Below are positions 6,208 to 34,921 of a stretch of 35,122 bases of DNA, piece by piece. This stretch comes from an uncultured Bacilli bacterium. GTDB lineage: Bacteria; Bacillota_I; Bacilli_A; RF39; UBA660. Where the stretch lies: positions 1 through 35,122 of the forward strand of contig CALVXD010000070.1 in assembly GCA_944368815.1 (NCBI GenBank), given 5' to 3'. Position 1 is the first letter of the stretch; each line of letters starts with the position of its first letter. The position numbers and the translations under genes are program-made. The notes under the pieces are model-generated. The model saw nothing but the letters and a program-made list of their open reading frames with translations. It ran no database searches and had not been told where the DNA came from.

Positions 6208-7137
6208 ATGAGAAATTTATTTCAAAGAAATAACAACGAAAGAGCAGGACAAGAAGTAGACGATTTTAGTCAATACAAAATAAGAATGTTTAAGGCTGTG
6301 CCACCTAATATGGCATTGATATGTCAAAATATTTTTACAGGTAGACCTTTTGTAAAAACAAGTGGTTTAGTAATACTAATGCCATGGGTTAAAAGTAAAA
6401 TGGTATCTTTGGCAGATAATACTATAGATTATCCTAAAGAAAAATATAAAACAGTTGATGGTATTGAATTGACTATTGATTTAGCTATTACTTTTTCAAT
6501 ATCAGATCCAATAAAATATGAGTTCAATAATAATGATCCAATGCAAGAATTAAAAATAAAAACACAAGATATGCTTAGACAGTATGTTGCTTTAAGAACT
6601 GTTGATGAAATGACTAATGGAAGACATACATTAAATGACTTTGATTCTAATAGGGATTACGCATCATTTGCAGTAAATAATGGATTAGAAATTAAGAATG
6701 TATATTTTAAAAATGTTGAATTACCACAGTCAATGAAAGATGACTATGAAAAAAAGAAAGTTCAAGAAATGGAAAATGCTAAATTATTAGCAGAAGCTCA
6801 AACTAAAAAAGCAGTTGCAATGTTAGAAGCAGAAGCAAGATATGAATCAGCTAAAAAAGATGCTGAGGCAAACAAAATTTTAGGAACTGCAGCAAATGTA
6901 GTACAAGCAGATGAGATAAAAAAAATTATAGAAAATATAGTTAATATGGATGCAAATCAGTTAGAATTAGTAAAAGCACAATTGCTTTCAAAGGGAAATG
7001 GTAATTTATTTTATGGTATGGAAGGACAATCAGAATTAATGAAATATTTAATTGCTAAAGATCAAAATGGAAGTAATAGAATGCAAAACAATGGAAATAA
7101 ACAAAAATCTGGATATACAAGAACAAGAAAAAAATAA
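6208..7137 (+). CDS. SPFH/band-7 domain protein without a membrane anchor
   Basis: A 309-residue member of the SPFH (stomatin/prohibitin/flotillin) superfamily. The band-7 core covers about residues 30-185 (PPNMALICQNIFTGRPF ... TVDGIELTIDLAITFSISDP) and is followed by a long Ala/Glu/Lys helix (about 185-235) that in this superfamily mediates oligomerisation. No N-terminal transmembrane helix or signal peptide is seen, unlike classical flotillins, so it is probably cytoplasmic or peripherally attached. The tail is basic and polar. It has its own strong promoter and terminator and sits between rsmG and parB. The specific role is unknown to me. Confidence 0.8.
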   Translation: MRNLFQRNNNERAGQEVDDFSQYKIRMFKAVPPNMALICQNIFTGRPFVKTSGLVILMPWVKSKMVSLADNTIDYPKEKYKTVDGIELTIDLAITFSISDPIKYEFNNNDPMQELKIKTQDMLRQYVALRTVDEMTNGRHTLNDFDSNRDYASFAVNNGLEIKNVYFKNVELPQSMKDDYEKKKVQEMENAKLLAEAQTKKAVAMLEAEARYESAKKDAEANKILGTAANVVQADEIKKIIENIVNMDANQLELVKAQLLSKGNGNLFYGMEGQSELMKYLIAKDQNGSNRMQNNGNKQKSGYTRTRKK

Positions 7138-26782: not shown

Positions 26783-26890
26783 TTAAACTAATTTTATATA
26801 ACTTTCAACTTCATAAATAAATTCAAATGGCTTCCTACTTCTTGCATTAACCCATCTATCAAATATTTCCACTGCATTTTTATAGTTGTT
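26783..26890 (-). other. Cryptic 35-codon tail of the element A recombinase
   Basis: In the integrated state this segment has no start codon and lies behind the SpoIVA frame. On the excised circle it would continue the recombinase frame across the joined attachment site: ...SYAY then NNYKNAVEIFDRWVNARSRK, ending PFEFIYEVESYIKLV and TAA. It is open for 35 codons with a protein-like, amphipathic composition. The frame relation is read directly; function is inference. Confidence 0.7.
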
Positions 26891-27732
26891 ATATGAATTG
26901 ATGGTGCTTTAGCTTTTAATTTAACTCCATATCTTCCACCTTGTTTTATAATTTCTGGAGTTTCTAATTTCATATCATCTAATGTTGGAGAAGCAATACC
27001 ATATCCTGTTTGCTTAACCATTTTAAGTGCTCCCTTAATTTGATCATATTCTTTTTTAGCAACATTAAATTCTTGAAATAGCGATAATAAATTAGCTTTT
27101 GAAGTAATATCAGTGCCAATTATATCATTTAATACTTGATTATATAGACCGTTTGGAGCTTCTAAATTTATAGTTACTTCTCCCGTTGAAGTATTTACTT
27201 CTGATAAATATGCTTTTGAAATATAGTCACAGTCATTAAAATGTTTAGTTATGTTATCAATATCTTTTAATTTATTAACTTCAATAACACTTTCTTTTAT
27301 TTTTTCAATATATGTTTTCTTTAATTCATGTTCATGATTTAATATAGCAATCCATTCTGGCATATTAACTTTTACTTCCTCAACAGGAAATTCATATAAT
27401 GCATTTTTTAAAATATTATACATGTCTTTTTCTTGCATATTTTCAACATTTATTGGCATAACAGGTACACCGTAATTTTCTTTTAAAGAATCTGCTAAAT
27501 TTTCTGTTTCAGGAAGCATTGGGTGAGCAGAATTTAATATAACTATAAATGGTTTTCCAATACTTTTTAATTCAGATACTACATTTTCTTCAACTTCTAT
27601 ATATTCATTTCTTGGAATGTCCCCAATTGAACCATCTGTAGTCATTACAATACCAATAGTAGAGTGATCTTTTATAACTTTTTCGGTACCTATTTCTGCA
27701 GCTTCTACAAAAGGAATTGGATCAGAATACCA
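26891..27732 (-). pseudogene. spoIVA: spoIVA, middle part (interrupted gene, piece 2)
   Basis: 280 codons of SpoIVA from WYSDPIPFVEAAEIGTEKVI through DGSIGDIPRNEYIEVEE, ALYEFPVEEV, EYDQIKGALKMVKQTGYGIA and RYGVKLKAKAPSIH, all close to the B. subtilis protein, with no frameshift or stop. It continues into element A sequence (26794-26890 in the SpoIVA frame: ITTIKMQWKY then unrelated residues to a stop), so an unexcised transcript gives a truncated product. The upstream junction with element B is at about 27733. The Walker A-containing N-terminal 120 or so residues are beyond the window. Confidence 0.94.
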
Positions 27733-27800: not shown

Positions 27801-29387
27801 CTATATTAATACTTCACTTTTTTTAATTCTATAATGAATTTCTAGTTTTTTATCTTTCGTTACATATATTTTATCTATTAATCTATTCATGATTTCTCTT
27901 GTTGGATTTTTCATATCTAGAAAACTTTTAATAATATCTAAATATTCTACATAACAAGAAGAATCATCATTAATACTAGATATTTCATTTTGTAATTGTT
28001 CTAGTTTATCTTTTGCAGTTTTAATATCTTCTTCAGTAGCATTAAATAATCTTTGATAAGTTTCTACACTTATAACATTATTAAATTTATCATCATATAA
28101 AGAGTCTTGTTTTCTTTTTAAATCATTTATTGTATGATTTAATTCTTCTATCTTTTTTAGTTTATCTGCTTTTGGATCAACATATTGGCTTTTAATAATA
28201 TTTTCAAATTCTTCTTTATCATTAATATATTGATTAGCCATAGTACTTAACTTGTCATAGACTGTGTTTTCTAGTTTTGTATAGTTAATATAGTGAGAAA
28301 AGCATATATCATACTTACTAAACTTACGATAGTTATTACAATTCATTGTGACTCTATCTCTTTTCTTATCATAACTAATACTCATTCTAGCACCACAATC
28401 TTTACAAAATACTAAATCAGATAAAACATAATCAACATTTCTTCGTTCAGGATTATAATTATTTGATGAATCTTTAATAGATTGTGCGATTTCAAATGTT
28501 TTCCTATCTACAAGTGGTTCGTGTGCATTTTCTTTAATACACCATTCACTTTCAGGAACACTTTTTCTTTTCTTAATCTTATAATTCACTTTTTGAAATC
28601 TGTGTTGAATTAAATCTCCAATATAAACTCTATTTTTGATGATATTACTGACAGATGTGTGTTTCCATATTTCAGGATGGTCAAATCTATTTAATTTTGA
28701 ATCAGAGTATTTATACATAACTGGTGTAGGTAATTCTTCTCTTGTTAGTATTTCAGCAATTTGTGAGCTACCATAACCTGCAACATATAAATCAAAAATT
28801 CTTTTTACTACAGGAGCAGTTTCTGGATCAGGTACTAGTTTGTGTTTGTCTAAAGGATCTCTCATATAACCATAAGGTGCAGAACTTCCACAAAACTTTC
28901 CATCTTTTTTCATTTGAAGTAAGTTTGAACGAACTTTTTTAGAAATATCTTTTGCATACATATCATTCATACTTAATCTAAATGGCATCATATCAGAGCC
29001 ACTTGTTTCAAAAAAAGTATCTATATCATCGTTTACGGCAACATATCTAACATCGTTTTCTGGGAAAAATGTTTCAACATAATAACCAGTCATTATATGG
29101 TCACGACCTAATCTTGATAAATCTTTAGTAATAACCATGTTTATTTTTCCATTTTCAATGTCATTTAACATTCTCTTAAACTCTGGGCGTTCAAAATTTG
29201 TTCCTGTATAACCATCATCTACATAAATATCAACTGCAACTAATCCTTGTGCTTTTAAATAACCAATTAATAAACTTCTTTGATTAGTGACACTTTCTGA
29301 TTCCATATCATCACCATCTTCACGAGATAGTCTTATATAAATGGCTATTTTAAAAATCGTATTGTCTATTGCATACCTACTATACAT
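27801..29387 (-). CDS. Large serine recombinase of element B (TndX/TnpX-like)
   Basis: A 528-residue recombinase. Resolvase domain: FKIAIYIRLSREDGDDMESESV with catalytic Ser21, KDLSRLGRDHIMTGYYVE and NDDIDTFFETSGSD; then the recombinase domain (GYMRDPLDKHKLVPDPETAPVV), a zinc ribbon with FCKDCGARMS and later cysteines (MNCNNYRK, ICFSHY), a coiled coil (about 390-480) and a basic C-terminus. The style is that of Tn5397 TndX and Tn4451 TnpX enzymes of Clostridia. It ends some 70 bp from the spoIVA junction. AAAGGAG precedes the start. Confidence 0.95.
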   Translation of the reverse strand: MYSRYAIDNTIFKIAIYIRLSREDGDDMESESVTNQRSLLIGYLKAQGLVAVDIYVDDGYTGTNFERPEFKRMLNDIENGKINMVITKDLSRLGRDHIMTGYYVETFFPENDVRYVAVNDDIDTFFETSGSDMMPFRLSMNDMYAKDISKKVRSNLLQMKKDGKFCGSSAPYGYMRDPLDKHKLVPDPETAPVVKRIFDLYVAGYGSSQIAEILTREELPTPVMYKYSDSKLNRFDHPEIWKHTSVSNIIKNRVYIGDLIQHRFQKVNYKIKKRKSVPESEWCIKENAHEPLVDRKTFEIAQSIKDSSNNYNPERRNVDYVLSDLVFCKDCGARMSISYDKKRDRVTMNCNNYRKFSKYDICFSHYINYTKLENTVYDKLSTMANQYINDKEEFENIIKSQYVDPKADKLKKIEELNHTINDLKRKQDSLYDDKFNNVISVETYQRLFNATEEDIKTAKDKLEQLQNEISSINDDSSCYVEYLDIIKSFLDMKNPTREIMNRLIDKIYVTKDKKLEIHYRIKKSEVLI

Positions 29388-29648: not shown

Positions 29649-30068
29649 CTATTGATATTCTTTTAGCATATCTTCCATTTCTTTAAGTTCTTCTTCAGTG
29701 GGTGGAATTGCTTCACATCTTTTTCCATCCCAAACTTCAACACCGTCTGAATCAAGTCTTATATGAGGACCTTTTCTTCCGTTCATCATTTCATCTTTAT
29801 TGTCTGATATATCAGTCACAGTAATAAAACTTTGTATTCTTTCATTTGTAATATAAGAATTAAGATAACCTTTAACAAAAACTCTTGTTCCTTTAACAAA
29901 AAAATCTTTATATATTTCATAAAGATTTCGGTTAATATTAAAACTAGCATAAACTTTCCTTTTATCATATTTAAGAGTGGTTAAACCAAACTTAATATAA
30001 TCTTTATTATTATCTGTCACATTATTAATAGTTCCAGATATTATAATTTCGTTTAAATCAATTTCCAT
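29649..30068 (-). CDS. Single-stranded-DNA-binding-like OB-fold protein
   Basis: A 139-residue protein whose first 105 residues follow the SSB/OB pattern: LNEIIISGTINNVT, IKFGLTTLKYDKRKVYASFNI, FFVKGTRVFVKGYLNSY and RIQSFITVTDI, with an acidic C-terminal tail (EEELKEMEDMLKEYQ). Such proteins are common in integrative conjugative and mobilizable elements, where they protect transferred or replicating single strands. Residues DGVEVWDGKRCEAIPPT precede the tail. A GGAAG site precedes the ATG. Confidence 0.7.
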   Translation of the reverse strand: MEIDLNEIIISGTINNVTDNNKDYIKFGLTTLKYDKRKVYASFNINRNLYEIYKDFFVKGTRVFVKGYLNSYITNERIQSFITVTDISDNKDEMMNGRKGPHIRLDSDGVEVWDGKRCEAIPPTEEELKEMEDMLKEYQ

Positions 30069-30176: not shown

Positions 30177-30235
30177 AAGATACTTGCTATACTCACTAGC
30201 AGTATCTTGCTATTACATCTAGCAGAAATCTGCTA
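30177..30235. repeat. Two tandem hairpins behind the 93-residue gene
   Basis: AAGATAC (30177-30183) pairs with GTATCTT (30202-30208), with an inner GCTA/TAGC stem; TAGCAGA (30220-30226) pairs perfectly with TCTGCTA (30229-30235). The second overlaps the gene's stop. Neither has a T run, so they may protect the mRNA 3' end or mark a DNA site. Confidence 0.65.
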
Positions 30236-30500
30236 AATAGATTCTTCTTATATTAGGTTCATTTTCAACTCTAATATATTTTTTTGTTCTTAATGATGTT
30301 ATGCAACTAGTAATCGTTCTTTTAGATACTTTTAAAAGATTACTTAAATACTTATTACTTGCATAACAAAATCCCTCTTGCATAGATAGGGTATTAATTA
30401 AACCCATTAATAGTTTAGTAGTAGAAGATAGTTCTTCATCTAATAAAACTATTGTAGGCACCTCTATATGCTTTAATTTAGTAATATCGCTATTATTCAT
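30219..30500 (-). CDS. Small winged-helix replication-initiator-like protein
   Basis: A 93-residue protein with a winged helix-turn-helix core: IVLLDEELSSTTKLLMGLINTL, CYASNKYLSNLLKVSKRTITSCITSLRTKKYIRVE, the layout of HTH-36/replication-initiator N-terminal domains in Firmicutes elements. ATG 30500 follows AAAGGAG; an upstream TTG would overlap the terminator-like hairpin. It lies downstream of the structured 30541-30799 region. Confidence 0.7.
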   Translation of the reverse strand: MNNSDITKLKHIEVPTIVLLDEELSSTTKLLMGLINTLSMQEGFCYASNKYLSNLLKVSKRTITSCITSLRTKKYIRVENEPNIRRIYLADFC

Positions 30501-30540
30501 ATTATCAATCTCCTTTCCTTTAAATTTAGGCAATAAAAAA

Positions 30541-30799
30541 ACTTGTAAACACTACTTACAAGTCATACTAATAATGACAATAAAATCCCTGTGTGAGATA
30601 AATCTCACTAAATAGGTTGCTTGAAGTAAAACATACATAACATATTTCAATCCCTTTTATTCTTTTATTTCGTTCTTTGAAATATGTTTTACTTCAAACT
30701 AGTTCATCTTATATTTCTATAAGATAGGTTCTAATATAAATCTACGAACATTTACTGAACCTTTATTTGTTAGTGATTTAATCTTTTCTAACAAATCTC
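30541..30799. other. Dense cluster of inverted repeats between two winged-helix genes
   Basis: No gene; at least six dyads in about 260 bp: ACTTGTAA/TTACAAGT (30541-30563; on the minus strand followed by six T, a terminator or attenuator), GTGAGAT/ATCTCAC (30593-30608), a 21-base arm at 30677-30697 complementary to 30621-30650 with an 8-9 base insertion, ATCTTAT/ATAAGAT (30707-30726), AGGTTC/GAACCT (about 30726-30762) and TTTGTTAG/CTAACAAA (about 30767-30796). Candidate replication origin, transfer origin or structured leader RNA. Confidence 0.75.
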
Positions 30800-31054
30800 G
30801 TATGTGTATAATCCTCGGTCGTATTCATTGAACCTTATATATTTGTTATCTTCTAATATTTTTAGGTTCTTCTTGAATCCAACATTTGTTATACTCAATT
30901 TCTTTTGAACTCTCCCGATACTTATACTTGTGAATTCACATCTTTGGGATTGTTCCGCACAGAGTATTTTGTATATCAGCTTCGTTTCAAACTTGATATT
31001 TTTATCTCTCCATACTCTTGGATCAATTAATTCTAGTTGTTTTTTTAATCTCAT
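30788..31054 (-). CDS. Winged-helix replication-initiator-like protein (88 aa)
   Basis: 88 residues with a winged-helix pattern (WRDKNIKFETKLIYKILCAEQ, TSISIGRVQKKLSITNVGFKKNLKILEDNKYIRF). It is similar in layout to the 93-residue protein, suggesting a pair of related DNA-binding proteins around the dyad-rich region. GGAGG lies 13 bases upstream of the chosen ATG; another ATG four bases earlier gives only a tiny frame. First gene of the leftward operon of element B. Confidence 0.65.
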   Translation of the reverse strand: MRLKKQLELIDPRVWRDKNIKFETKLIYKILCAEQSQRCEFTSISIGRVQKKLSITNVGFKKNLKILEDNKYIRFNEYDRGLYTYEIC

Positions 31055-31236: not shown

Positions 31237-31740
31237 ATGCTAGAAAAAAATATCGGCGAAGTTATTGCTGAAGCTAGAGAAAAGAAAGGTTTATCGCAAA
31301 GACAACTTGCGAAACTTGCAAAGATTAATAACTCTGAACTTTCTAAAATAGAATCAGGTATAAGAAAAGATCCTAGTCCTAAAATATTAAGAAAGATAAG
31401 TAATATAATAGATGTTAATTATAGTGACTTAATGTATATGATAGGTTTAGGATTAGAAGTGACACAACTTAATTATTTTGTTAAGAGTCATTATGCTAGT
31501 TTAAATCTAGAACAATTAGATACTGCTGAAATAAATGTTTTAGGAAGTATAGAAAATTCTGAAAGTATAGTTTCTACATGTAAAAAAGAATTAGAAAAAG
31601 ATGATTTACCAGAAGAACAAAAAGAGTTATTAATACATACTATCGAAGATCATACATATCAAATTAATTCATCAAAAGAAATAATCAAACTTATTCAAAG
31701 TTTAAAAGTAAAGGGGAGAAATAAAAATGCTAAAAAGTAA
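31237..31740 (+). CDS. XRE-family repressor of element B
   Basis: A 167-residue regulator: Cro/C1 helix-turn-helix in residues 1-65 (IGEVIAEAREKKGLSQRQLAKLAKINNSELSKIESGIRKDPSPKIL) and a helical C-terminal part without an S24 protease. It faces away from the winged-helix operon; its promoter contains the ACCC/GGGT operators, so autoregulation and silencing of the leftward operon are likely. The last 14 bases overlap the next gene. Confidence 0.9.
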   Translation: MLEKNIGEVIAEAREKKGLSQRQLAKLAKINNSELSKIESGIRKDPSPKILRKISNIIDVNYSDLMYMIGLGLEVTQLNYFVKSHYASLNLEQLDTAEINVLGSIENSESIVSTCKKELEKDDLPEEQKELLIHTIEDHTYQINSSKEIIKLIQSLKVKGRNKNAKK

Positions 31741-32155
31741 TATAATTAAAAAATTATTAGTAGTAGTGAATTTTATTGTAGGATTATTTTTAATACTAAC
31801 TATCATATTTAATAATAAACTTACTTATTCTTTATATTGGATTTTAATTCCTATTTTAATATTTTTAATTGTAATGTTTATATATGAGGTAGATAAAGGG
31901 TTAATTGAAATAAATCAAAACGAGGGCAAGTCAATTAGAAGATCATATAATGATATAACAGTTGTATCTACTGTATTCTATGGATTAATATATTTAGGAA
32001 TAGAGTTTATTGATATGATAAATAGTGATGTTAGAAATAATATTTATTTAGTATGTGGTTTCTTTGCAATTACACTTTTATATGAATTATTTGTATTCAT
32101 GGCAATTAAGAGTGCTAAAAAAGAAACATCGGAATTACTAAATAAGAAAAAATAA
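31727..32155 (+). CDS. Four-helix membrane protein
   Basis: 142 residues with four hydrophobic segments (about 10-28, 34-52, 77-95, 105-123) and a basic end (KSAKKETSELLNKKK). Start overlaps the repressor gene, so the two are co-expressed. I do not recognise the family; an accessory to the repressor, or an exclusion or immunity protein, would fit the position. Confidence 0.65.
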   Translation: MLKSNIIKKLLVVVNFIVGLFLILTIIFNNKLTYSLYWILIPILIFLIVMFIYEVDKGLIEINQNEGKSIRRSYNDITVVSTVFYGLIYLGIEFIDMINSDVRNNIYLVCGFFAITLLYELFVFMAIKSAKKETSELLNKKK

Positions 32156-32182: not shown

Positions 32183-32250
32183 CTTTTGCATAGCAAAAGA
32201 AAAAAATAACCTTTTACCCTTTCGTTAGATTAGGTATTAGGTTATTTTTA
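32183..32250 (+). terminator. Two terminator hairpins after the repressor operon
   Basis: CTTTTGC/GCAAAAG (32183-32199), and AATAACCT (32205-32212) with AGGTTATT (32239-32246) followed by T. The second is the likely transcription stop. Confidence 0.75.
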
Positions 32251-32254
32251 TTTA

Positions 32255-32520
32255 AAGAATACGTGGCACGTTTTGTTGCTTTAGCAATGAAAGTGGCGAT
32301 AGTATTCTTTCTTTTTTATGTAGTCGCAAGACAAAATAAAAAAGAGCAACATTCACTTACGATAGTTTGTGAAATGTTGCTTATTGGGTTTCAAAAGGGT
32401 GTCCCTTTGCACACTATTCCTAGTTGGCAAAATGCCGACTTGGTAGTGTGTTACTATCTTGTCTTAAAGATAGTCTTTCACGAAAATCCATTAGTTATGT
32501 AATTTCTTTTGGATTTTCGT
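32255..32520. other. 265-bp block of successive dyads, G+C richer than surroundings
   Basis: At least six inverted repeats in a row: AAGAATAC/GTATTCTT (32255-32309, enclosing TTGCT/AGCAA), GCAACATT/AATGTTGC (32346-32380), AAAGGG/CCCTTT (32394-32408), CACACTA/TAGTGTG with inner GGC/GCC (32410-32450), ACTATC/GATAGT (32453-32474), CGAAAATCC/GGATTTTCG then T (32481-32523). G+C is 65 of 180 bases over 32281-32460 (36%). A 79-codon frame (32263-32502, GTG start) covers it, but the nested dyads argue for a structured RNA or a transfer/replication site. Confidence 0.7.
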
Positions 32521-32601: not shown

Positions 32602-33258
32602 CTAATAATTTTCTTTGTTTATTATACTTAATAAAGAATAAAAAGTCATTAATAAACCACTTGATATAAGTATGCCACCTATAATATCAGTAAACCAATG
32701 AACACCTGATATTAATCTTCCAACAACAGTTATTGTAATTATAATAATTGATAAATAATTAATAACTTTTGTTATTTTATTATTAAATAACTTTTTATTG
32801 ATTAAAATAGAACTTCCACAAATGCAAATTGTCATCAATGTATGAGATGATGGGTAAGATGCTTCTAAAAAGCCATTCATTAATATTGGTCTATAATTAA
32901 TAATTACTTTTTCAAAGAATACATATAAAGCTATTACAATAATATAATATAGTCCTAATAGTATAATCTCTTTATCGACTTTAAATATACTTCTTCTTTT
33001 TATGAATTGGATAAGCCCTATAAAAGCATACACTATAGCCATAAAAACAGGAATTAATCCTAACCAATCAGTAATGTGATACCAAATCATATTTACTCCT
33101 GTAGTTTCAAAAATAAATTGATTTAAAGTCGCAAACCCTATACTAGAATTGTTTACTCCAATTTGTTTTACATCTACTACTTTGACTAATATTGTAAAAG
33201 TTATTGCTATTAAAAGCAAAATTCCACTAATGAGAAAATTTCTTTTTTTGTTGTTCAT
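32602..33258 (-). CDS. PAP2-family membrane phosphatase
   Basis: A 218-residue protein with about six transmembrane helices and the three PAP2 (type 2 phosphatidic acid phosphatase) motifs: a Lys-Arg-Pro motif (EKVIINYRP), SYPSSH with the catalytic His, and GRLISGVHWFTDIIGG with the second His and the Asp. It dephosphorylates lipid phosphates such as phosphatidate or undecaprenyl pyrophosphate. GAGGAG precedes the start. It is cargo of element B; undecaprenyl-pyrophosphatase relatives can give bacitracin tolerance, but that is not demonstrable here. Confidence 0.88.
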   Translation of the reverse strand: MNNKKRNFLISGILLLIAITFTILVKVVDVKQIGVNNSSIGFATLNQFIFETTGVNMIWYHITDWLGLIPVFMAIVYAFIGLIQFIKRRSIFKVDKEIILLGLYYIIVIALYVFFEKVIINYRPILMNGFLEASYPSSHTLMTICICGSSILINKKLFNNKITKVINYLSIIIITITVVGRLISGVHWFTDIIGGILISSGLLMTFYSLLSIINKENY

Positions 33259-33419: not shown

Positions 33420-33640
33420 CTGTAACCCTTTATGGTGTTTACTCAGAAAGACTGTTTCTCTTCTTATTAGTCATATTTCTTCTAACTCAGATGCTGTTTC
33501 TATTTTCTTATTAGTTCGCAGTATCCAAATCCCTAATGGAAAATATGTATTCTAATAACGAGGTTGTCGTAAGCTAATAAGCTAGAGTATCGTTGCCAAT
33601 TATATTTCACAAAAATCCAATCTGAAAGGTGGTGATATTT
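33420..33640 (+). ncRNA. Candidate bridge RNA region in the IS110 leader
   Basis: IS110-group elements encode a bridge RNA in the left non-coding end that pairs with donor and target DNA. This leader is non-coding and has nested pairing, for example AACGA (33557-33561) with TCGTT (33589-33593) around AAGCT/AGCT. Which loops guide the target cannot be told here. Confidence 0.4.
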
Positions 33641-34921
33641 ATGACTAATTCTTTGTTTATCGGTGTTGATGTTTCACTCCAATCTAATCAAATTTGTGTT
33701 GTAAATTTTGATCAACATAAGTTCTTTAATTTGAAATTTTCTAATACTCCAGATGGTTGTGAAGAGGCAATTAATAGAATTAAGGATATCTATGATAAAT
33801 TTTATTTTGATAAAATTATTGTTGTTTGTGAAGCTACTGGAATGTATTCTTTTCATTTAGCTTGTTATTTTTCATCGCATGAATATCTTAATAACTTTAA
33901 TACTGAAGTTTATCAAATTAACGCTCATGACTTTGCTAAATATAAGGATAGTTTTCCTGATGTAGAAAAAACTGATCCGTCAGATGCTTATATCCTTGCC
34001 GATTTTGCTAGAGTTGGTAGAACTAAGCAATTACATCCTTTTCGTGGTTCGCAACACATTGCTCTTCAGCGTTTAACTAGACAAAGATATCATATCTCTA
34101 AAAATCTTGTTAAAGAAAAACTTTATGTTATGAATAACATTTATTTATCTTTTTCAGGACTAATTATTGCTAACAAGAAGAATAAACCTTTTTCTAATAT
34201 GTTTGGTGCTACTTCTTGTGCTATTTTTGATAACTTTGACTCTCCAGATCAAATTGCTGAAACTCCCGTTGATGATTTGTTAGATTTAATTTCAAAAGTG
34301 GGGAAAAACCGAACTAAAAACCCAAATGAGAAGATTGATTTACTAAATAAAGCTATTCGCTCTTCTTATCGATTAGATCAAACTGCTTATAACGGTATTA
34401 ACATCGCTGTTGCTTCTTCTTTAAATACTATTCGCTTCTTAGAAAATGAACTTAAACAAGTTGATAAAGCTATTTTGGATACCGTTAGTGGTTTGAATTC
34501 TAACGCTTATAATTCTTTACTTTCTATTCGGGGTATTGGTAAAGTTTATGCGGCTGGTATTTTGGCTGAAATCGGTGATATTAATTATTTTAAACACAAT
34601 TCCAATTTAGCTAAATATGCAGGACTTTACTGGAATAGAACACAATCAGGTAAATTTGAAAAAGAAGATAAAAAATTCTCACAACACGCTAATAAATATC
34701 TTCGTTATTACCTAATCGAAGCCACTGCTTCTTGTGTTAGAATGAATTTCCCTTTTATTAAGAATTTTTATGATTCAAAATTTAAGGAAGTTACTAAACA
34801 TCAGCATAAACGTGCACTCGTTTTATCTGCTCGTAAACTTGTTCGTTTGATTTTTGGATTACTGCGAAAAAATCAATATTACAGTCCTATAGACTCGAAT
34901 ACTCAATCTTTAATAAACTGA
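33641..34921 (+). CDS. IS110-family transposase (DEDD, RuvC-like)
   Basis: A 426-residue transposase. N-terminal RuvC-like catalytic domain: LFIGVDVSLQSNQICVVNF (first Asp), IIVVCEATGMYSF (Glu) and DVEKTDPSDAYILADFAR (the Asp pair). C-terminal transposase-20 domain: LLSIRGIGKVYAAGILAEIGDINYFKHNSNLAKYAGL and a Ser-containing region that carries the second active residue in this family. ATG 33641 is chosen with AAAGGTGG upstream; an in-frame GTG at 33629 lies in the ribosome binding site. The frame is intact, so the element is probably active. Confidence 0.94.
   Translation: MTNSLFIGVDVSLQSNQICVVNFDQHKFFNLKFSNTPDGCEEAINRIKDIYDKFYFDKIIVVCEATGMYSFHLACYFSSHEYLNNFNTEVYQINAHDFAKYKDSFPDVEKTDPSDAYILADFARVGRTKQLHPFRGSQHIALQRLTRQRYHISKNLVKEKLYVMNNIYLSFSGLIIANKKNKPFSNMFGATSCAIFDNFDSPDQIAETPVDDLLDLISKVGKNRTKNPNEKIDLLNKAIRSSYRLDQTAYNGINIAVASSLNTIRFLENELKQVDKAILDTVSGLNSNAYNSLLSIRGIGKVYAAGILAEIGDINYFKHNSNLAKYAGLYWNRTQSGKFEKEDKKFSQHANKYLRYYLIEATASCVRMNFPFIKNFYDSKFKEVTKHQHKRALVLSARKLVRLIFGLLRKNQYYSPIDSNTQSLIN

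Follow-up and report, generated by a model that had tools for sequence, protein, structure and literature searches.

An origin of transfer (oriT) is usually treated as part of a private pair, one relaxase acting on one nick region. For MobM, the MobV relaxase of plasmid pMV158 (MOBV1), the nick sequence is given as 5'-TAGTGTG/TTA-3' (PMC5090054), and the cut comes immediately 3' of one hairpin arm, that of IR3 (PMC5863519). Its oriT is described as a short site directly upstream of mob that overlaps the mob promoter and contains three inverted repeats which overlap and exclude one another. IMESag-rpsI of Streptococcus agalactiae is an integrated mobilizable element with a MobV relaxase and the nick TAGTGCG/TTA; by its description, its oriT occupies 42 bp upstream of mob and ssoA lies downstream of mob (PMC5090054). 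Here we describe a segment at positions 32255-32520 of contig C70 of an uncultured Bacilli bacterium (assembly GCA_944368815.1; genome 1.27 Mb in 71 contigs), the window analyzed being the entire contig of 35,122 nt. The segment is best read as a MobV oriT with an attached hairpin module, H1, that is common to several oriT classes. The oriT assignment is strong, and for H1 we infer a function in the handling of the transferred strand. We put at roughly 85% the probability of the whole explanation, in which a MobV-type integrative mobilizable element (IME) has inserted in the gene spoIVA, the segment serves as its oriT module and H1 is a candidate single-strand origin; that the segment is an oriT is a part of it that we hold to be highly probable.

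The MobM nick sequence, TAGTGTGTTA, was found at 32444-32453 on the strand that carries the hairpins (plus), where it occurs once in the window against 0.16 expected. The predicted cut, 32450/32451, falls directly 3' of the arm of a hairpin, H5 (32410-32450), which is probably the hairpin recognized by the relaxase. The inner and outer arms of H5 resemble IR1/IR3, and an IR2-like TAGT...ACTA was seen by eye. The next hairpin, H6 (32453-32474), is predicted to be the first DNA transferred. To compare relatives we aligned 33 copies, consisting of the window and 32 of 40 related loci (L024-L063) after near or exact duplicates, truncated copies and poor copies had been excluded. The nick motif was TAGTGTGTTA in 30 of the 33 copies and differed by one base in the other three, in two of which the change in the nick-side arm was compensated in the opposite arm. 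The paired state was kept in 92.2% of cells in H5 (double changes in 9 of 17 pairs) and in 91% in H6 (7 of 8 pairs). Over all hairpins 82% of cells were paired, changes on both sides occurred in 41 of 79 pairs, and the covariation score was 0.247, as compared to 0.119 in shuffled alignments (0/500 as high) and at most 0.075 when the pairing was slid.

A relaxase of the matching family was encoded on contig C7 of the same genome (L068:3825-5117, minus strand). It scored 113.5 bits against the NCBIfam MobV model (cut-off 100) and matched the solved structure of MobM (PDB 4lvi) with an E-value of 8.6e-14. A MobV gene was present in 23 of 41 related loci, and in 17 of the 21 with at least 9 kb of downstream sequence; in all 23 it was encoded on the minus strand, opposite to the oriT and 0.9-10 kb from it, in the part that would be transferred before the rest. 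Since the exact MobV nick, a MobV relaxase on the same element and a constant geometry in relatives coincide, we read the segment as a transfer origin, and this candidate of the first-pass annotation, made from the letters of the sequence, is thereby strongly supported. The alternative it offered of a small non-autonomous element fails, as the segment is one site within an element that measures at least 13.7 kb and has its own recombinase and relaxase.

The segment shares with pMV158 the nick, its position directly 3' of a hairpin arm and a homologous relaxase. It differs from the site as described for pMV158 in its ~220 nt of conserved hairpins, in the extra upstream hairpins H1-H3 and in not being upstream of mob; unlike IMESag-rpsI, it joins the oriT and a candidate single-strand origin in one piece. 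The closest MobV relaxases in the plasmid collection were those of three Priestia plasmids (NZ_CP015330, NZ_CP018881 and NZ_CP040364; 35-45%). All three have a GCACAC hairpin site upstream of mobV (structure judged by eye), and in two plasmids a GAGTGTG/TTCTA-like site forms its end (also by eye). Unlike in the segment, their oriT is upstream of mobV, and pieces of the H1 core were not found there.

Fold predictions placed seven hairpins in succession across 32255-32520, in agreement with the first-pass claim that dyads fill the stretch. As DNA the segment had a minimum free energy of -57.8 kcal/mol, where shuffled sequences averaged -22.3 (z -10.3); as RNA it had -98.3 kcal/mol, where they averaged -54.4 (z -9.7). 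Neither as DNA nor as RNA did any of 200 shuffles reach the energy of the segment. When the window was divided into 526 overlapping stretches of 266 nt, both strands included, the one starting at 32187 had the lowest RNA energy. The composition had been called foreign at 36% G+C, and the enrichment is real, since the window stands at 24.3% and only 0.6% of 1743 266-nt windows reached an equal or higher G+C, while the count itself gives 35.0%. After H1 (32255-32309; match of model R1 at 32245-32320) come H2 (32311-32344), supported by fold and alignment, and H3 (32345-32381), whose stem tip is well supported and whose base aligned poorly; with 71% and 50% of cells paired, respectively, these two had weaker support in the poorly aligned part of the 33 copies. 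H4 (32394-32408) was also seen, by eye, 5' of mobV on a Priestia plasmid. The last, terminator-like hairpin (32480-32520) was recovered by fold, inverted repeat and alignment. It had been noted earlier as a final hairpin with a T tail; the hairpin is there, but a simple terminator scan did not score it, and it is absent from many relatives and lies outside the conserved core. On the 5' side, an 88% complementary inverted repeat with a T-run, I3 (32202-32249, plus strand), is a probable terminator between the upstream operon and the hairpins; its loop exceeds the length that the scan permits, and it was not scored either.

H1 extends beyond this one oriT type. With BLAST, matches were obtained in 128 of the 288 genomes of the order sample, many over the first 50 nt only, and in the 19 match sites that were read H1 preceded differing oriT-like sites. 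A scan of the genome_contigs collection with an H1-core pattern gave at least 116 contig stretches, from metagenome-assembled genomes of small-genome gut Bacilli and of Clostridia, 80 of them with loci. Among the matches listed, all 79 loci with enough downstream sequence had an oriT-like site 58-233 nt 3' of H1 on the same strand. The sites among these 79 fell into three classes: class A, TAGTG(T/G)(G/A)/TTA, in 19 loci; class B, for example CATAGGGGG/TTA, in 52; and class C, CCCTAGTGAG/ATA, in 8, the cut positions of classes B and C being guesses. The same three patterns were found in 1 of 79 reverse complements, in 1 of 78 upstream stretches of 250 nt and in 8 of 2676 random stretches. The relaxases tested in classes A, B and C all matched Pfam Mob_Pre; between classes, the four representatives compared were only 22-29% identical over their BLAST matches, and those of classes B and C were below the NCBIfam MobV cut-off. 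Since H1 is common to three relaxase clades with different nicks, it is unlikely to be the site that the relaxase itself recognizes. The next open reading frame (ORF) 3' of H1 and the oriT was on the minus strand in class A (17/17) and on the plus strand in class B (47/49) and class C (7/7), and the nearest upstream ORF in class A copies was plus in 9 and minus in 7. The position and orientation of H1 thus track the nick and not the neighboring genes. H1 was present in 37 of 40 class A loci. In two loci (L041:9433-9633 and L036:9714-9932) a tandem pair of H1 hairpins stood 5' of a single oriT, and internal-loop variants of H1 were seen in other copies, such as L080, L057 and L061.

We analyzed the pairing of H1 in two alignments. 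The first held 67 sequences, the window and 66 of 68 distinct H1s with full flanks chosen by the core pattern (L102, cut 36 nt past H1, and L164, identical to the window, were omitted), and its free stems covaried at 0.374 as compared to 0.108 after shuffling. The second came from a covariance model that no longer required the exact core, and a search with it gave 80 matches over 81 sources, which had mostly been picked as expected carriers of H1 or the element and so do not give a rate. The resulting 69 distinct sequences were aligned to the model, which favors it; 91.5% of cells were paired, double changes occurred in 18 of 23 pairs, and the covariation was 0.415 against 0.126 shuffled (0/500) and at most 0.095 slid. 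A tandem T.G/G.T wobble was retained in 66 of the 69 while adjacent pairs changed with compensation, and the sequence of the internal loop was strongly conserved. The wobbles pair on the H1 strand and would be A.C mismatches on the opposite strand. Strong covariation together with the retained wobble indicates that H1 probably acts folded in the transfer strand.

H1 was found in 23 of 395 genomes in the class sample and in 8 of 392 in the phylum sample, all of them from the window's own family. Among the matches listed, 21 of 80 H1 loci were labelled Clostridia, Clostridiaceae or Clostridium. One of the Clostridia-labelled loci, L139, resembles the Bacilli family by its coupling protein, and another, L133, has an oriT like those of the Bacilli loci L105 and L107 (by eye). 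The window's genome carries two H1s, the one described here and one on contig C36 (L069:7866-7946, minus strand). The C36 copy has a changed stem, TTATG...TGTAA, with the T.G/G.T wobble kept, and adjoins a second Mob_Pre relaxase and a serine recombinase-like gene. The H1 core gave no match in the viral_contigs collection, and a class A core pattern gave none in genome_contigs or viral_contigs. Among 72,556 plasmids and in phages neither the segment nor H1 had a meaningful match, named single-strand origin sequences not being compared directly. In the open-licence literature we found no description of H1 under MobV oriT, IMEs, single-strand origins, spoIVA elements or RF39 conjugation, and no relevant match to its core sequence string.

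What H1 does can be stated tentatively. That its placement follows the nick independently of the relaxase clade argues that some factor besides the relaxase acts on the transferred strand: H1 is carried just 5' of the nick by elements with different MobV-type relaxases and by one MobL conjugative element. The best-supported role, though we would give it somewhat less than even odds, is that of a single-strand origin priming the complementary strand of the transferred DNA. Single-strand origins are orientation-specific, with three stem-loops in pBAA1 and ICEBs1, and in rolling-circle plasmids they are described as mostly upstream of the nick origin (PMC4595007). H1 agrees with this in being folded and in a fixed orientation on the displaced strand, on the same strand as the oriT-like site in 79 of 79 loci among the matches listed. 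Like the sso1 type of ICEBs1 and pBAA1, for which three stem-loops and orientation-dependent function are described (PMC4595007), H1-H3 are three hairpins; unlike sso1, which lies downstream of the oriT there, they are upstream, and no plasmid sequence match to H1 was found. With the same degree of caution, H1 could be a new class of single-stranded DNA signal of ~55 nt, independent of the relaxase, that brings a host factor onto the incoming strand to begin second-strand synthesis. A possible course of transfer follows. The serine recombinase would excise the element; the MobV relaxase would bind H5, cut at 32450/32451 and stay on the 5' end; H6 and the side with the PAP2-type phosphatase gene would lead into the recipient, with H1-H3 at the trailing end. 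In the single transferred strand H1 would then fold, as probably would H2 and H3, and the folded H1 would recruit host RNA polymerase or primase, which would prime the complementary strand.

The main rival to a priming role is that H1 is a docking signal for a helper conjugation protein, such as a coupling protein or an accessory factor of the relaxosome, common to IMEs that use one helper. We consider this unlikely, if a serious competitor. A constant helper may exist, since a VirD4-like coupling protein was found in 271 of the 288 genomes of the order sample, and a conjugative element with a MobL relaxase on G032:C11 also has H1 and a class A nick. On the other hand, H1 does not track one coupling protein: seven Clostridia-labelled H1 genomes had only a distant one (best 33-36% identity) and the other seven H1 genomes, which are Bacilli-like, had one at 54-77% identity. 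A double-stranded protein site, moreover, would not need an invariant wobble. The G032:C11 element (L277:6276-16553 and L283:4919-10835) is integrative and has VirB4-like and VirD4-like genes besides the MobL relaxase, and no MobV gene was found within 47 kb of its H1 and nick; the oriT may be a passenger there or the substrate of a different relaxase. The VirD4-like protein (PF02534) often occurs as one conserved copy of ~700-880 aa, in the window's own genome at C7:31826-33565, and its occurrence in 271 of 288 genomes suggests a near-universal conjugation or secretion system in small-genome gut Bacilli.

Less probable still is that the hairpins, or H1 alone, are a plus-strand small RNA needed for mobilization. 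The precedent is sgm-sRNA of SGI1, likewise a structured non-coding module beside the oriT of a mobilizable island; as described, sgm-sRNA is an RNA from an mRNA 3' end and the SGI1 relaxase is of the tyrosine-recombinase type (PMC9299015), whereas the segment is known from DNA sequence alone. As RNA the plus strand does give the more stable fold (-98.3, as compared to -79.5 for the minus strand), and the covariation is compatible with RNA. But no Rfam family matched in the window at gathering cut-offs, the terminator-like repeat I3 ends 6 nt before H1, the promoter and terminator scan found no plus-strand promoter-like site close 5' of H1, and the split orientation of the upstream ORF in class A is not what such an RNA would lead one to expect. 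For the structured non-coding RNA that the first-pass annotation had listed as a candidate, the covarying structure stands, while the missing Rfam match and an orientation that follows the nick rather than genes speak against it. A scan for tRNA and tmRNA returned nothing.

We give slightly less credit again to a purely double-stranded role, in which the hairpins would be inverted repeats bound by protein, or cruciforms, that control excision or the expression of the relaxase. The oriT hairpins of pMV158 are reported to extrude on supercoiled DNA and also to control mobM expression (PMC5863519), and pair changes were mostly Watson-Crick with no strand asymmetry outside the wobble. Such a role would fit poorly with a class A relaxase gene encoded on the opposite strand at a distance of up to kilobases, and with a T.G/G.T wobble that is near-invariant despite covarying neighbors. 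Finally, a 79-codon frame (GTG start, 32263-32502) does cover the segment as had been noted, and ORFs of the same cluster (cluster 9) were found in 8 fetched loci, but since it is open over the aligned stretch in only 3 of the 33 copies, with indels and stops breaking it elsewhere while the stems persist and no Pfam family for its product, we rule it out as a protein gene for practical purposes. Paired arms rather than codons constrain the sequence, as the first-pass annotation had supposed; the search of other genomes and the comparison of covariation with codon conservation that it had proposed yielded the 33 aligned copies, in which stems covaried and conservation did not follow codons.

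Several observations weigh against the explanation of the segment as an oriT module with a candidate single-strand origin. The oriT is not directly upstream of mob as in pMV158 and IMESag-rpsI, and the relaxase is on another contig, C7, linked to the segment through the two halves of spoIVA. The nick position is a prediction from the sequence. The three oriT class patterns were written after the sequences had been seen, and three of the 40 class A loci (L037, L038 and L044) are without H1. In the plasmid and phage collections nothing similar to H1 was found, and H1 itself occurred only beside oriT-like sites and never near a replication origin alone, as would be expected equally of a signal specific to conjugation and of a general single-strand origin. 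With the two wobble columns set aside, G.T cells (12) and A.C cells (17) were roughly equal in number, and the strand preference therefore comes from the tandem wobble and the better plus-strand fold.

The element is best read as a MobV-type IME inserted in spoIVA. The 3' part of spoIVA (26794-27732, minus strand), with Pfam SpoIVA_ATPase (profile positions 151-237) and SpoIVA_middle, stands at the left of the element on C70 and encodes the C-terminal part, cut at about profile position 120; the N-terminal part (profile positions 1-123) is on contig C7 at 6286-6651. In five genus mates with an intact spoIVA (L070-L074) the two flanks join with a 3-nt overlap, TGG, the insertion core (attachment site) common to both junctions, here at 27730-27732. 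The same gene is split in G082 of the same genus, and proteins like the SpoIVA fragment (cluster 14) were found in five fetched loci (the window, L024, L025, L026 and L038). Exact excision at the TGG core would restore the spoIVA frame of window 26794-27732 and C7:6271-6651, as judged by eye in the window's genome and G082, which recalls the skin-type elements. Like those, this is a serine-recombinase element within a sporulation gene; here the gene is spoIVA and the element mobilizable.

Over both contigs the element measures at least 13.68 kb, the gap between C70 and C7 not included. Next to the TGG core lies a large serine recombinase for integration and excision (27801-29387, minus; Pfam Resolvase, Recombinase and Zn_ribbon_recom). 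It is followed on the minus strand by a small protein kept in 14 loci (29649-30068; cluster 6) with no Pfam or NCBIfam family, an HTH_36 protein (30219-30533; Pfam, cluster 1) and a small conserved protein (30788-31054; cluster 2, 24 loci). On the plus strand, an HTH_3 regulator just 5' of the oriT module (31237-31740; Pfam, cluster 0, 27 loci) and a putative small membrane protein (31727-32155; cluster 5, 19 loci; membrane nature judged by eye) precede the hairpins. Beyond them are a PAP2-type phosphatase, probably cargo (32602-33258, minus; Pfam PAP2), and an inserted element, an IS110-family transposase (33629-34921, plus; Pfam, and NCBIfam 206.3 bits with a cut-off of 140). On C7, between the contig break and the spoIVA N-terminus, the element has further genes, including the MobV relaxase. 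No mating-pore genes were recognized in the ORFs read, the contig gap being unread and some ORFs unscanned. C70 and the matching contig of G082 both end shortly past the IS110 transposase, whose non-coding ends could hold a guide RNA. The hairpins themselves were set aside as that guide RNA, by inference, as H1-H6 are more than 1 kb from the transposase with the PAP2 gene between.

If H1 is indeed a single-strand origin, the conversion of transferred DNA to double strand in these hosts would become directly testable. Mobile elements of uncultured gut bacteria can also be traced through the H1 pattern, a single scan having given the 116 or more stretches above. A module that stays constant while relaxase and nick change would point to a second, shared recognition step in conjugation.
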